Part shown: one piece after another, positions 93 to 9,651 of the stretch
Position numbering within the stretch: the stretch's first letter is position 1
How the letters are laid out: the number at the start of each line of letters is the position of its first letter
Source of the DNA: Lactobacillales bacterium
GTDB taxonomy: Bacteria; Bacillota_I; Bacilli_A; RF39; UBA660
DNA length: 39,792 nt
Reading direction: 5' to 3'
NCBI GenBank assembly: GCA_015059545.1
Contig: SVAG01000008.1
Span: 1 to 39,792 of the forward strand
Notes under the pieces: model-generated
Seen by the model: only the letters and a program-made list of their open reading frames with translations
What the model was told of the DNA's origin: nothing
The model's database searches: none
Program-made: the position numbers and the translations under genes

Positions 93-2291
93 CTATTCTT
101 CTTCTTTTTCAATTTTTACTAATACTTCTCTAGGTTTTGAACCATTAGGTGGTCCAATTATTCCTCTTTCTTCAAGTAAATCTATACAACGCGCTGCTCT
201 ATTATAACCTAATCTAAATCTTCTTTGTAATAATGAAGCACTTGCTTTTCCTTGTGTTACTACAAATTCTACTATTTCATTATAAAGTGGTTCTTCTGTA
301 GCATCTCTACTATCAGATGGTTCTATGCTTGAAGTTGCCTTCATTTCTTCATCATCCATAGTAAGTGTTTCATCATATCTAGCAATTTGTTGTTTAATTG
401 TGTGATCTACTACACTTTTTATTTCTTCATCACTTAAGAAAGTACCTTGAATTCTAAGTGGTGTATTTTCACCTTGTGGTAAAAATAACATATCCCCTTT
501 ACCTAATAATTTTTCAGCACCTGATGAATCAAGTATTGTTCTTGAATCTATATTAGAAGCTACTGCAAATGCTATACGAGATGGTATATTTGCTTTAATA
601 ACCCCTGTAATTACATCAGCAGATGGTCTTTGAGTTGCTACTATTAAATGAATTCCTGCAGCTCTAGCCATTTGTGTAATACGCATAATAGAATCTTCTA
701 CTTCTTTTGCTGCTACTAACATAAGGTCTGCAAGTTCGTCTATTATAACAACGATAAATGGTAAATGTCTTAATTTATCATCTTCACTTCTAGATTCATT
801 TTCTTTATCTATATATGCATTATATCCAGCAATATTTTTAGTCTTACTATCACTAAATAAATCATATCTTCTTTCCATTTCAACAACTATTTTTTTAAGA
901 GCTATATTTGCTTTTCTAGCATCCGTTACAACTGGAGCCATTAAATGTGGTACACCATTATACATAGAAAGTTCAACTTTTTTAGGATCGACTAATACTA
1001 ATTTCACTTCATCTGGTTTTGATCTCATTAACATTGAAACTATAATACTATTTATACATACTGATTTCCCACTACCTGTAGATCCTGCTACTAAAAGGTG
1101 TGGCGTTTTATTTATTTCGCAATATACGGGTTTACCCATTATATTTTTTCCAAGTGTTACTAAAAGTTTTGAATCATTATAAGATGATGGTACTGTTTCT
1201 AATATTTCTCTTACAGTAACTGCTGATTTTACTTTATTTGGTATTTCAACACCAATTGTAGATTTACCAGGTATTGGAGCTTCTATACGAACATCACGTG
1301 CAGCTAAAGCTAAAGCTATTTCTTTATTTAAACTTGCGACTTTACTAACTTTAGTACCTGATTTAATTTCTACTTCATATTGTGTAACTGTTGGTCCTGG
1401 ATTAATTGCAACTACATGGCCTTCTACCCCAAAATCTTTTAATACTTGTTGTAATGTTTCTACATTATGATTTATAGTTTCTTTAGATTCCATATTTTTA
1501 CTTTTAACTGGTTTTGCTAATAAACTAATTGGAGGTAATTTATAACCTTTAGTATCTGGTTCAAAATCATCTTTAAGAGGTTTTACTTCTTCTTTTATTT
1601 CTTCTTTTGGTTCTTCATCTACTCTTATAAGTTGATCAATAGAAGATACTACTACTTTATTATCATTATCATAAGCTTCTTCTGTTTCTTTAATATGTTT
1701 ATCTTTTTTCTTTTCTTTTCTATTTGCTCTTTTTTCACTCATATTTTTACATACATCATATATTGAAAATCCTGAAAACATTATAAATCCACAAATAATT
1801 AATGCAATAAATGCTACTCTAGTTCCATTTATATCTAATAATGAAACAAACATACATGAGAAAATCGCACCTATTATTCCCCCACCTAAATTAGCTTTTG
1901 TTGACATATTAGATATTGTACTAAAGAAATTACTTACTGTTTCTGTAATTATCTTTGTACCTTCTAAATCTTTATCTTTTAGATATTCCATATGAGAACA
2001 TACTAATAATCCTATTAAAAATATATAAAATCCTACTAATCTAGAATTAAAGAAATCTGGTTTTTCTCTTTTTATTATCATATAAGATCCAATAATAATT
2101 AATGATAATAAAAATACAAAATCAAAAGGTCCTGCTAAAAATACTGCAAAACTACTTATAAAATGTCCAATTGGTCCACTTTTTGGTATCCATCCTATTA
2201 TGGCAATTAATATAAGGAAAAAACCAATTAATTCTACTGAAAATCCGGTACTCTTTTTCTTAGTTTCTTTTCTTTTTTTCTTCTTTGCCAT
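93..2291 (-). CDS. ftsK: DNA translocase FtsK/SpoIIIE
   Basis: Septal, membrane-anchored ATP-driven DNA pump that clears chromosomes from the closing septum (or into the forespore in spore formers). The first ~180 residues hold a basic start (MAKKKKRK) and about four to five hydrophobic membrane segments; then comes a charged linker, then the motor with Walker A GSTGSGKS near residue 400 and Walker B VVIIDELADLM. The last ~65 residues form the winged-helix gamma domain (LLQRRFRLGYNRAARCIDLLEERG) that reads polar DNA sequences. At 732 residues it is near the usual length of SpoIIIE/FtsK of Bacillota. The start is set by AGGAGG ten bases upstream. A TATAAT box lies at 2316-2321, just after the terminator of the upstream RNA. 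Sequence alone does not separate vegetative FtsK from sporulation SpoIIIE. Confidence 0.96.
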   Translation of the reverse strand: MAKKKKRKETKKKSTGFSVELIGFFLILIAIIGWIPKSGPIGHFISSFAVFLAGPFDFVFLLSLIIIGSYMIIKREKPDFFNSRLVGFYIFLIGLLVCSHMEYLKDKDLEGTKIITETVSNFFSTISNMSTKANLGGGIIGAIFSCMFVSLLDINGTRVAFIALIICGFIMFSGFSIYDVCKNMSEKRANRKEKKKDKHIKETEEAYDNDNKVVVSSIDQLIRVDEEPKEEIKEEVKPLKDDFEPDTKGYKLPPISLLAKPVKSKNMESKETINHNVETLQQVLKDFGVEGHVVAINPGPTVTQYEVEIKSGTKVSKVASLNKEIALALAARDVRIEAPIPGKSTIGVEIPNKVKSAVTVREILETVPSSYNDSKLLVTLGKNIMGKPVYCEINKTPHLLVAGSTGSGKSVCINSIIVSMLMRSKPDEVKLVLVDPKKVELSMYNGVPHLMAPVVTDARKANIALKKIVVEMERRYDLFSDSKTKNIAGYNAYIDKENESRSEDDKLRHLPFIVVIIDELADLMLVAAKEVEDSIMRITQMARAAGIHLIVATQRPSADVITGVIKANIPSRIAFAVASNIDSRTILDSSGAEKLLGKGDMLFLPQGENTPLRIQGTFLSDEEIKSVVDHTIKQQIARYDETLTMDDEEMKATSSIEPSDSRDATEEPLYNEIVEFVVTQGKASASLLQRRFRLGYNRAARCIDLLEERGIIGPPNGSKPREVLVKIEKEEE

Positions 2292-2332
2292 GTCATTACC
2301 TCCTACGATATATAAATTATATCACAAAAAAC

Positions 2333-2492
2333 AAAAAAAAACTAGAGATAGCAATAACGACAAAACCGGGCTTCCCAGGTGGGCGTAACATGTAAGCTTT
2401 AGGATCCTTAAATTAATAAGTATTCAACACCACTTAGCAATTATACTCCCAATCGTTATAAGTGTAGGTTTTTCTTAAAAACTATCTCTAGT
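2333..2492 (-). ncRNA. Structured non-coding RNA, 6S RNA-like candidate
   Basis: About 160 bases without an ORF but with complete transcription signals: a TTGCAT-N17-TATAAT promoter just upstream, a predicted start at the A of 2492, and a run of eight U at 2333-2340. The ends pair exactly over 11 bp (2482-2492 with 2341-2351), and a second long-range helix forms inside it (2453-2459 with 2354-2360), followed by a GGG/CCC helix. A long rod closed by pairing of both ends, about 160-200 nt and independently transcribed, is the hallmark of 6S RNA, which binds sigma-A RNA polymerase. The SRP RNA motif, RNase P motifs and tmRNA features are absent. The segment is more GC-rich near 2370-2390 than its surroundings. 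RNA gene: fairly sure; 6S identity: a guess. Confidence 0.6.
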
Positions 2493-2498
2493 AACTTA

Positions 2499-2527
2499 AT
2501 TATATCAATTAAAATTTATAAATGCAA
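2499..2527 (-). promoter_or_regulatory. Promoter of the candidate ncRNA
   Basis: On the minus strand TTGCAT (2522-2527) is followed by a 17-base spacer and a perfect TATAAT (2499-2504). The next purine at +1 spacing is the A of 2492, exactly where the long closing stem of the RNA begins. Confidence 0.8.
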
Positions 2528-2547: not shown

Positions 2548-2571
2548 AAAAAAAAGTTAGTAAACTAACTT
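2548..2571 (-). terminator. Intrinsic terminator after the pseudopilin gene
   Basis: Stem AAGTTAG / CTAACTT with a four-base loop, followed by eight U on the minus strand. The TAG stop of the pseudopilin (2565-2567) is inside the stem. Confidence 0.85.
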
Positions 2572-2924
2572 TCTATATTCTCAGAACATTTATTATCTAT
2601 GCTATAAACAAAATTTTCATTTTCATCTACTGTTACTTTTATAGTATTATCTTTAAACTCATCATCATCCATACTTATATAATCTTCTTCTATTAAAGTA
2701 TTTACTGTAATACAAAATACATTTTCTGATTTAATAATATATTTAGAATGATCTCTTACATAACTACCAGCATCAGAAAATAAAACTTGTTTTTGAGCTG
2801 AAGTCAATTCTTTTTCTTTTTTATCTTGTTGTTCTAAAACCAATGGTGTAACAACTAATGCAAGAAGACCAAGCATTGTTATAACTGCAAGTACCTCTAT
2901 AAGTGTAAATCCTTTATTTTTCAT
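2565..2924 (-). CDS. Type IV pilin-like (pseudopilin) protein
   Basis: 119-residue secreted/pilus-type protein with a class III (prepilin) signal: MKNKGFTLIEVLAVITMLGLL, cleaved after the Gly by a prepilin peptidase, Glu at +5 as in true pilins. The hydrophobic N-terminal helix is followed by a small soluble domain with two Cys (residues ~71 and ~113) that may form the usual C-terminal disulfide loop. The gene follows the LCP gene by 49 bases with no clear own promoter, so co-transcription is likely. No pilus ATPase, platform protein or peptidase is in the window. Could serve a pilus, a competence pseudopilus or a minor surface structure. Confidence 0.85.
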   Translation of the reverse strand: MKNKGFTLIEVLAVITMLGLLALVVTPLVLEQQDKKEKELTSAQKQVLFSDAGSYVRDHSKYIIKSENVFCITVNTLIEEDYISMDDDEFKDNTIKVTVDENENFVYSIDNKCSENIES

Positions 2925-2973: not shown

Positions 2974-4929
2974 CTATTCAAGGCCTTCTATTCCTGTTAT
3001 ATCATCTATATCTATATCTTCATTTTCTGATTTAGAATCTGATGATTCTTCTACTTTTTCCTCTATTTCTTTATTGTTTGAATTATTATCTTCTTCAATA
3101 TTAGAATTAGTATCTACTTTAACTACAGTTAAAATTAATTCTGTAACACTAACTAAATCAGTTCCTTTATTATAATTTTGATATAAAACTGTACCATCTT
3201 CACCACTATCTTTTTCTATATATTTAATAGTTACATCAAGATTTAATTTTTTAGCTAAAGATTTAGCTTCACTTTCTGTTTTTCCAACAAAGCTAGGTAA
3301 TTTAGTAGTTTCATATTCACCTTTACCTATTACTACTTCTTTATAATCTTCATCTATATCAAAACTAAATTCTTTTATAAGAGTGGCTTTTTCTTCATTT
3401 AAATTTATCTTCATTGCTTTTTTTACATCTTTTATACTACCATCATATAAAACATAATTATATAAATTTAAACCTGTTCTTTCATCATATATTCTAGCAT
3501 CATAACCACTTAAATGAAGTCTTCTAAATCCAACTAAATCTTCTAATTTAGCATCACTACTTTTTACTAATATATCTTTTCCAATATTATATAATGATAA
3601 AATTTGTTCTGTACTCATATTAGTTTCCATACTATTACTAACTTTATCAAGTAAATCACTTATAGTATCCAAACTTTTTATTTCTTTTAATTTATTTAAA
3701 GTAGCTCTTAAAACTAATTGTTGGTTTTCTCCTCTAACAAAGTCACTTCTATAACCCTTAGTCCATTTGCTAGAACATTTTGATGTATTATTTTTTCTAT
3801 TTCTTGATAATGCTAAAGCTTGTTCTCCATTTAATTTTTGCAATCCTTCTTCTACGTAAATAGTATTTTTACCCCATTTACGGCTACTATTTTGTTCACA
3901 AAAACTATATGGAACATCAACTTCAACACCACCTAAAGCATCTATTATATTTACTACACCTTTAAAATTTATTTTTACATAATAATCTATTTTAATATCT
4001 ACTAATTCTTCAATTGTACTAATCATACAATCTTCACCATATATAGCTGCATGTGTAATCTTATTTTTTGCTTTATCCTTAAAACAAGATATTGGTACAT
4101 ATGAATCTCTTGGAATACTAAGTATTGTTGTCGTAAGTGTATTTGGGTTAAATGTAAGTAACATTAATGCATCTCCATTAAATGCACTATTTTTTAATGA
4201 TTCTTCATCACTATCTACCCCCATAATTAATATACTAAATGGTTCTTTCACAATATTTTTTTTATTAACTTCTTGTTTAATTATTTTTTCTTTTGTATAA
4301 ATTATTTTTGTATCTTCATCTAATGATTCATATTTTTCTTCATCTATACTTTTAAGATTATTAACATAACTAGTTGGTACAAATGCATAGTCAATTTTTT
4401 TATCATATAAAGCATCTATTAATGTTAAATAGTCATCATATTCTACTATTTTATTTTTTATATTTTCTTTTTCTATTACTTCTTTTGGTATTTCATTACC
4501 ATCTATACTAGTATAATCACTTATAATACCAATTTTCCCATTACCTATATTTTCTAATTTATAAGATTTGTTTTCTACTAAAGATATTAAACTTGATGAA
4601 TAAATTGTTGAACTACTAGATAAATTATCTATCGTATTATAAGTTTTTAAAATATATTTTGAACCTGTAAATAATATAAAAGTATATATAAGTGTTATAG
4701 GGATTAATTTAAAATATTTTGATTTTCTTTTTACTAAATATTTTAAATATGTAAATGAAAAACCAATGAACATTAAAACTATAATTATTATAATTAATAA
4801 TCTTATAAATGTTTCAATTCCACTCAATAAAGAAAGTGCATATATCATTTTAAAAGAAGCACAAATATTAAAAATAAATAATAATATTAAAATTAAACTT
4901 TTTCCTTTACATCTATTTAAAACACTCAT
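2974..4929 (-). CDS. LytR-CpsA-Psr (LCP) family protein with extra domains
   Basis: LCP enzymes transfer lipid-linked glycopolymers (teichoic acids, capsule) to peptidoglycan outside the membrane. This 651-residue protein has three N-terminal hydrophobic segments (to residue ~95). Next comes a region (~120-215) with the look of a solute-binding half-domain (GKIGIISDYTS, then YDDYLTLIDALYDKKIDYAFV). The LCP domain follows (~235-470), with FSILIMGVDSDEE, the SIPRDSYV arginine/aspartate motif, NKITHAAIYG, and RSDFVRGENQQ. A PASTA-like unit (LPSFVGKTESEAKSLAKKL, ~555-620) and an acidic Glu/Ser/Asn tail end the protein. It is much longer than the usual ~300-400 residues. Promoter TTGTTA-N17-TATAAT lies at 4957-4985. 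LCP assignment is firm; the flanking domain calls are by eye. Confidence 0.92.
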   Translation of the reverse strand: MSVLNRCKGKSLILILLFIFNICASFKMIYALSLLSGIETFIRLLIIIIIVLMFIGFSFTYLKYLVKRKSKYFKLIPITLIYTFILFTGSKYILKTYNTIDNLSSSSTIYSSSLISLVENKSYKLENIGNGKIGIISDYTSIDGNEIPKEVIEKENIKNKIVEYDDYLTLIDALYDKKIDYAFVPTSYVNNLKSIDEEKYESLDEDTKIIYTKEKIIKQEVNKKNIVKEPFSILIMGVDSDEESLKNSAFNGDALMLLTFNPNTLTTTILSIPRDSYVPISCFKDKAKNKITHAAIYGEDCMISTIEELVDIKIDYYVKINFKGVVNIIDALGGVEVDVPYSFCEQNSSRKWGKNTIYVEEGLQKLNGEQALALSRNRKNNTSKCSSKWTKGYRSDFVRGENQQLVLRATLNKLKEIKSLDTISDLLDKVSNSMETNMSTEQILSLYNIGKDILVKSSDAKLEDLVGFRRLHLSGYDARIYDERTGLNLYNYVLYDGSIKDVKKAMKINLNEEKATLIKEFSFDIDEDYKEVVIGKGEYETTKLPSFVGKTESEAKSLAKKLNLDVTIKYIEKDSGEDGTVLYQNYNKGTDLVSVTELILTVVKVDTNSNIEEDNNSNNKEIEEKVEESSDSKSENEDIDIDDITGIEGLE

Positions 4930-8532: not shown

Positions 8533-9651
8533 TTAATTTATATAATCTTTTATTTTTCTTGTATTTCTTGGGTGTCTTAATTTTCTTAATGCTTTTTCTT
8601 CTATTTGTCTTACTCTTTCTCTTGTAATATTTAAATCTTTACCTACTTCATCTAATGTCATTCCCCTATTATTTCCAATTCCAAAACGTTTTGTTATTAT
8701 TTCTCTTTCTCTATTATTTAAACTTTTTAAAACACTTGATATATAATCTTGAAGTTGTCCAAAAGTTGCTGCATCTTCTGTTTTTTGGTTTGGATCAGCT
8801 ATAAAATCACCTAAAGTCTCTTCTTCATCTTCACCAATTGTTTTTTCTAAACTAGTTATATTAATAGACATTTCTCTTAATAATTTAATAGTTTCTTCTG
8901 AAAGTTCTGTTTCTCTTGCTAATTCAACTATAGTTGGTTCTTTTTGATTTTTTTCTAATAAAATTTTTCTAGCTTTTTCTATTTTAGATAAACCTTGACT
9001 AGCGTGAACAGGTAATCTTATTAAACGAGATTTATCAGCAATAGCCCTAGAAATTGATTGATGAATCCAGTGTGTAGCATATGTAGAAATTTTTGTTTCA
9101 TATTTACTTTCAAATTTATCAATTGCTTTTATAAGACCAATATTTCCTTCTTCTATTAAATCTGAAAAATCTAATCCTCTACCCATATATCTTTTTGCTA
9201 TTGAAACAACTAATCTTAAATTATGTTCTATTAATTTTTTTCTTGCTGATGGATATCCTATTTCTTTCATTTTTACTAACTCTTTTTCTTGTTCAACAGT
9301 TAATATTGGATATTTTTTTATTTCATGAAGATATGCAGAAACATTATCATCATAAAAGTAATCTGATTCACTATATACCATTTCAATTTCTTCTAAATAC
9401 TCTTCTTTAATAACTAATATATCATTCATAATTAAATATGTATTTAATACTTCTAATATAATATCATCATTTGTCATTTGTTTTAAATCTTTATAATCTA
9501 TATGTGATTCAACATTTCTAAATTCTTCATCTAAAATTATTTCTATATCCGTTTCTTTAATAAGTTTTTGAAAATTTATTTTTTCTTTCTGTCTTTCTTT
9601 TGATTCTATTTTAAAATCAATTATTTCTTTTATTCTATTAATGAAATTCAT
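8533..9651 (-). CDS. Sigma-70 family RNA polymerase sigma factor (RpoD-like, divergent)
   Basis: 372 residues. An unusual N-terminal ~100 residues is followed by region 1.2 ([18 protein letters not shown]), region 2 ([40 protein letters not shown]), region 3 and region 4 ([17 protein letters not shown], then [20 protein letters not shown]). Region 4.2 is canonical for -35 recognition. In region 2.3-2.4 the sequence is [19 protein letters not shown], whereas primary sigma factors have YATWWIRQAITRAIADQAR: one melting tryptophan and the arginine are replaced by histidine. It is not next to dnaG as rpoD usually is. It is the last gene of the Myb-array operon, four bases after the 765-residue array gene, whose TGA stop overlaps its ribosome site. 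It may be a group 2 sigma factor rather than the housekeeping one. Confidence 0.9.

Follow-up and report, generated by a model that had tools for sequence, protein, structure and literature searches.

6S RNA mimics an open promoter on the housekeeping RNA polymerase and is released once part of the 5′ side of its bubble has been copied (PMC8876501, PMC8414754). The resulting product RNA characteristically carries GG at positions 4/5 or 5/6 (PMC8414754), and the 6S RNA of Bacillus subtilis has a collapse helix (PMC8876501). For Mollicutes, Tenericutes or RF39, we found nothing specific on 6S RNA in the open-access literature. The locus analyzed here lies on the minus strand of a 39,792-nucleotide stretch of DNA, the whole of which we call the window (Table 1). 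With the RF00013 family, which includes SsrS of Escherichia coli and BsrA (6S-1) of B. subtilis, it shares a full-length alignment, a closing stem (P1), helix P2, an open 5′ side of the bubble, an apical arm running from GGGA to CCCACC, a hairpin within the bubble, a GG in the predicted product RNA, and a putative promoter and terminator of its own. It departs from the norm of that family in its length of about 160 nt, its score under the gathering cut-off, and a closing stem that is shortened in the genus. With a probability of about 97%, we read 2492-2333 as a 6S RNA gene of the ssrS/bsrA type, for which polymerase binding, inhibition and release would be expected by analogy with the family. 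It is an ordinary 6S RNA gene and an added member of a known family, and the general picture of 6S RNA function is unchanged by the find.

Table 1. Features of the 6S RNA locus, in window coordinates
Feature	Position	Strand	Basis or remark
-35 element TTGCAT	2522..2527	(-)	sequence; 3/6 match to TTGACA
Extended -10 element TGATATAAT	2499..2507	(-)	sequence; kept in 41/47 relatives
6S RNA, ~160 nt	2333..2492	(-)	RF00013 match; lineage model
Closing stem P1, 5′ arm ACTAGAGATAG, 11 bp	2482..2492	(-)	exact complement of 2341-2351
Helix P2, 5′ strand AAAACC	2467..2472	(-)	pairs with 2367-2362
Predicted product-RNA template, 5′-GUAGGUUUU	2464..2472	(-)	start opposite C2464
Central bubble, 5′ side	2451..2463	(-)	unpaired in family consensus
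Apical arm, GGGA to CCC	2381..2450	(-)	covarying helices (helices 3-6)
Hairpin in bubble 3′ side, CUGGG AAG CCCGG	2366..2378	(-)	fold and alignment
Helix P2, 3′ strand GGUUUU	2362..2367	(-)	pairs with 2472-2467
Closing stem P1, 3′ arm CTATCTCTAGT, then U run	2341..2351	(-)	sequence; covariation
Second extended -10 TGATATAAT, just behind 6S terminator	2316..2324	(-)	sequence
ftsK/spoIIIE-type DNA translocase, downstream neighbour, outside RNA	93..2291	(-)	Pfam FtsK_SpoIIIE, alpha and gamma domains

The initial annotation had observed that the shape fits 6S RNA and had proposed an Rfam search and a covariation check in relatives. The default Rfam scan of the window returned the tmRNA and one tRNA only, with no match at the 6S locus. 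At a permissive threshold, RF00013 aligned end to end (2497-2335, model positions 1-187 of 187) with 41.6 bits and an E-value of 3.2e-7, the sole such match in the whole genome. This score lies under the gathering score of 46.4 and, like the short closing stem, counts against the assignment. Default cut-offs miss the copy because it is short (160 nt, versus a mean of 178 nt for the aligned relatives) and somewhat diverged. The full-length match, relatives well over the gathering score and the covarying stems described below together bear out the suspected 6S shape. Matches to microRNA and snoRNA models in the same stretch fell far under their own gathering scores and were attributed to chance, the DNA being AT-rich. 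The plus strand also folds well (z -3.7), as the complement of a rod-shaped RNA will, but it is the minus strand that carries the promoter, the U run and the Rfam match; a plus-strand open reading frame at 2200-2388 had no Pfam match, overlaps ftsK and was rejected.

Homologous copies are widespread. A copy from another species of the same genus scored 47.4 bits with RF00013, over the gathering score, and the family matched in 122 of 145 genomes of the taxonomic family, with 90 of the 145 over the cut-off and a best score of 77.4 bits. An order-wide draw gave matches in 195 of 241 genomes (best 82.9 bits), and a class-wide draw gave 6S RNA in 159 of 391, by a search that loses weak matches. 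The matches show 6S RNA retained almost throughout this uncultured lineage of Bacilli, in which genomes are close to 1.2 Mb. A lineage model (R1), built from 47 of the copies, scored the window copy, itself one of the training sequences, at 139.1 bits. Of the 20 listed genomes of the family in which the Rfam model had found nothing, it recovered 11, ten of them strongly and one weakly with a partial match at a contig end. Default Rfam cut-offs thus overlook some members of the lineage, and a lineage-specific model would close this annotation gap. Four genomes of the family (G017, G029, G243 and G570) had two 6S matches each, versus a single copy elsewhere, and in the first three the two matches sit on different contigs; these could be paralogues like 6S-1 and 6S-2 of B. 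subtilis, or it is possible that the assemblies are mixed.

The gene appears to have its own transcription signals. Its -10 element is TATAAT (2504-2499) with TGA directly before it, and an extended -10 at the matching place upstream of the RNA is found in 41 of the 47 relatives, versus 4% of shuffled upstream DNA. The spacer to the -35 element is 17 bases. What had been called a perfect promoter is therefore perfect, and extended, at the -10, whereas the -35 is weak and the description was overstated for it; the consensus promoter scan of the window did not output the 6S promoter. Judging from these signals, the transcript would begin at A2492 and end within the U run, which continues the closing stem with eight further U (2340-2333), so that the 3′ arm of this stem may also serve as part of a terminator. 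Independent transcription is thus suggested, at the level of sequence, by the conserved extended -10, the U-run terminator and the length of 160 nt. The stretch of about 160 nt with 11 bp of exact end pairing and a U run was found as first described, on the minus strand. An 11-bp end pairing with a T run occurs about 0.95 times per window in shuffles, versus one observed, and by itself lies within chance expectation for DNA this rich in AT; the feature stands above chance because of the Rfam match and the covariation.

The RNA lies upstream of ftsK on the same strand, as first noted, some 41 bases ahead of the ftsK start at 2291. This placement and the terminator-like stem with U run at the end of the RNA would suit a cis-acting leader, a riboswitch or attenuator that senses something and controls read-through into ftsK, and ftsK is the next gene throughout the five genus members as well as in two further genera. 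A leader is expected at a conserved position before the gene it regulates, but ftsK was found behind the RNA in only seven of the 47 relatives (the five genus members, L007 and L051), and in the other 40 no ftsK was detected downstream of the RNA within the DNA examined. The placement is therefore a local matter and not family-wide. Moreover, neither the default nor the permissive Rfam scan matched a riboswitch family, RF00013 aligns end to end, and the second extended -10, between the RNA and ftsK, is a probable ftsK promoter by its sequence; L007 and the four other genus members inspected have a similar element behind the RNA. We accordingly rejected a riboswitch or ftsK leader on neighbourhood and family match, and regard this reading as very improbable.

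The structure of the 6S RNA is supported by covariation. The stretch 2332-2495 folds at -39.4 kcal/mol (z -2.2), and RNAalifold on the 47-sequence alignment of relatives gave 35 pairs, 25 of them with at least one double change. For a hand-named 6S-like structure, 96.4% of cells were paired across the 47 relatives and 23 of the 34 pairs change on both sides. The covariation check returned 279 such double-changed cells, versus a mean of 77.5 in shuffles and 50-62 when the partner was slid by one base. P1 is among the best supported helices, with double-sided changes at eight of nine aligned pairs, and the covariation as a whole supports the rod of closing stem, central bubble and apical arm by which a 6S RNA is recognized. 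Helix P2 is 96.8% paired and nearly invariant, so that covariation hardly tests it. CCCACC, GGGA and the bubble hairpin are conserved among the relatives; the hairpin is 97.4% paired, and its innermost pair alone has changes on both sides. A new structured RNA that resembles 6S in shape only, which the initial annotation had entertained and which the sub-threshold score of the window copy would allow, has a negligible probability given the full-length RF00013 match, the covarying stems, the conserved product-RNA template, and relatives that reach 82.9 bits and align to the window copy with common invariant bases.

By analogy with described 6S RNAs, we propose the following course for this one. 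The RNA would be made from its own extended -10 promoter, ending at the closing stem and U run. The rod with its central bubble, resembling an open promoter, would bind polymerase in complex with the primary sigma factor and lower transcription from housekeeping promoters, probably as growth slows. When nutrients return, transcription of the bubble's 5′ side by the polymerase might start at C2464 and yield a short product RNA, predicted as 5′-GUAGGUUUU... This start base is invariant in all 47 relatives, and the predicted product is GUAGGUUUUU in 24 of them and GUCGGUUUU in most others. The product RNA could then open P2, whose 3′ strand would become available to the bubble hairpin, whereupon polymerase would be released. 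One GG belongs to both the hairpin and the 3′ strand of P2, and hairpin and helix are therefore mutually exclusive. When the P2 5′ strand was masked in the fold of the window RNA, in imitation of the product RNA, the three G-C pairs of the hairpin rose from 0.76-0.78 to 0.89-0.92. From its sequence, this arrangement seems closer to the release hairpin of the E. coli type than to the collapse helix described for B. subtilis (PMC8876501). That the release switch in this reduced-genome lineage is a gamma-proteobacteria-like competition of hairpin and P2 for the same GG, and not a collapse helix, is a tentative idea that we consider rather unlikely. A sigma-70 factor with regions 1.2, 2, 3 and 4 is encoded some 6 kb away from the 6S gene (8533-9651, minus strand) and is probably the primary sigma factor.

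The 6S RNAs of lactic acid bacteria (PMC8414754) resemble the present one: their consensus structure places a hairpin across from the 5′ bulge, and their product-RNA motif combines GG with an A upstream of it. The template U for this A is present in 33 of the 47 relatives, whereas the window has A instead. The neighbourhood differs: in lactic acid bacteria the gene adjoins rarA and uspA, and here it adjoins ftsK, a placement common to this genus and two other genera in the family sample. Named relatives traced by way of FtsK are metagenome-assembled Bacilli, Tenericutes or Mycoplasmatota, including Candidatus Pelethosoma merdigallinarum, and presumably represent the RF39 group of Bacilli. On the other side of the 6S gene, a small protein (2565-2924, minus strand) carries the N-terminal methylation motif of type IV prepilin-like proteins (PF07963), and a homologue also lies just upstream of 6S in L003 and L006. 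Beyond it, a LytR-CpsA-Psr protein (2974-4929, minus strand) has a C-terminal PASTA domain within one chain of 651 residues.
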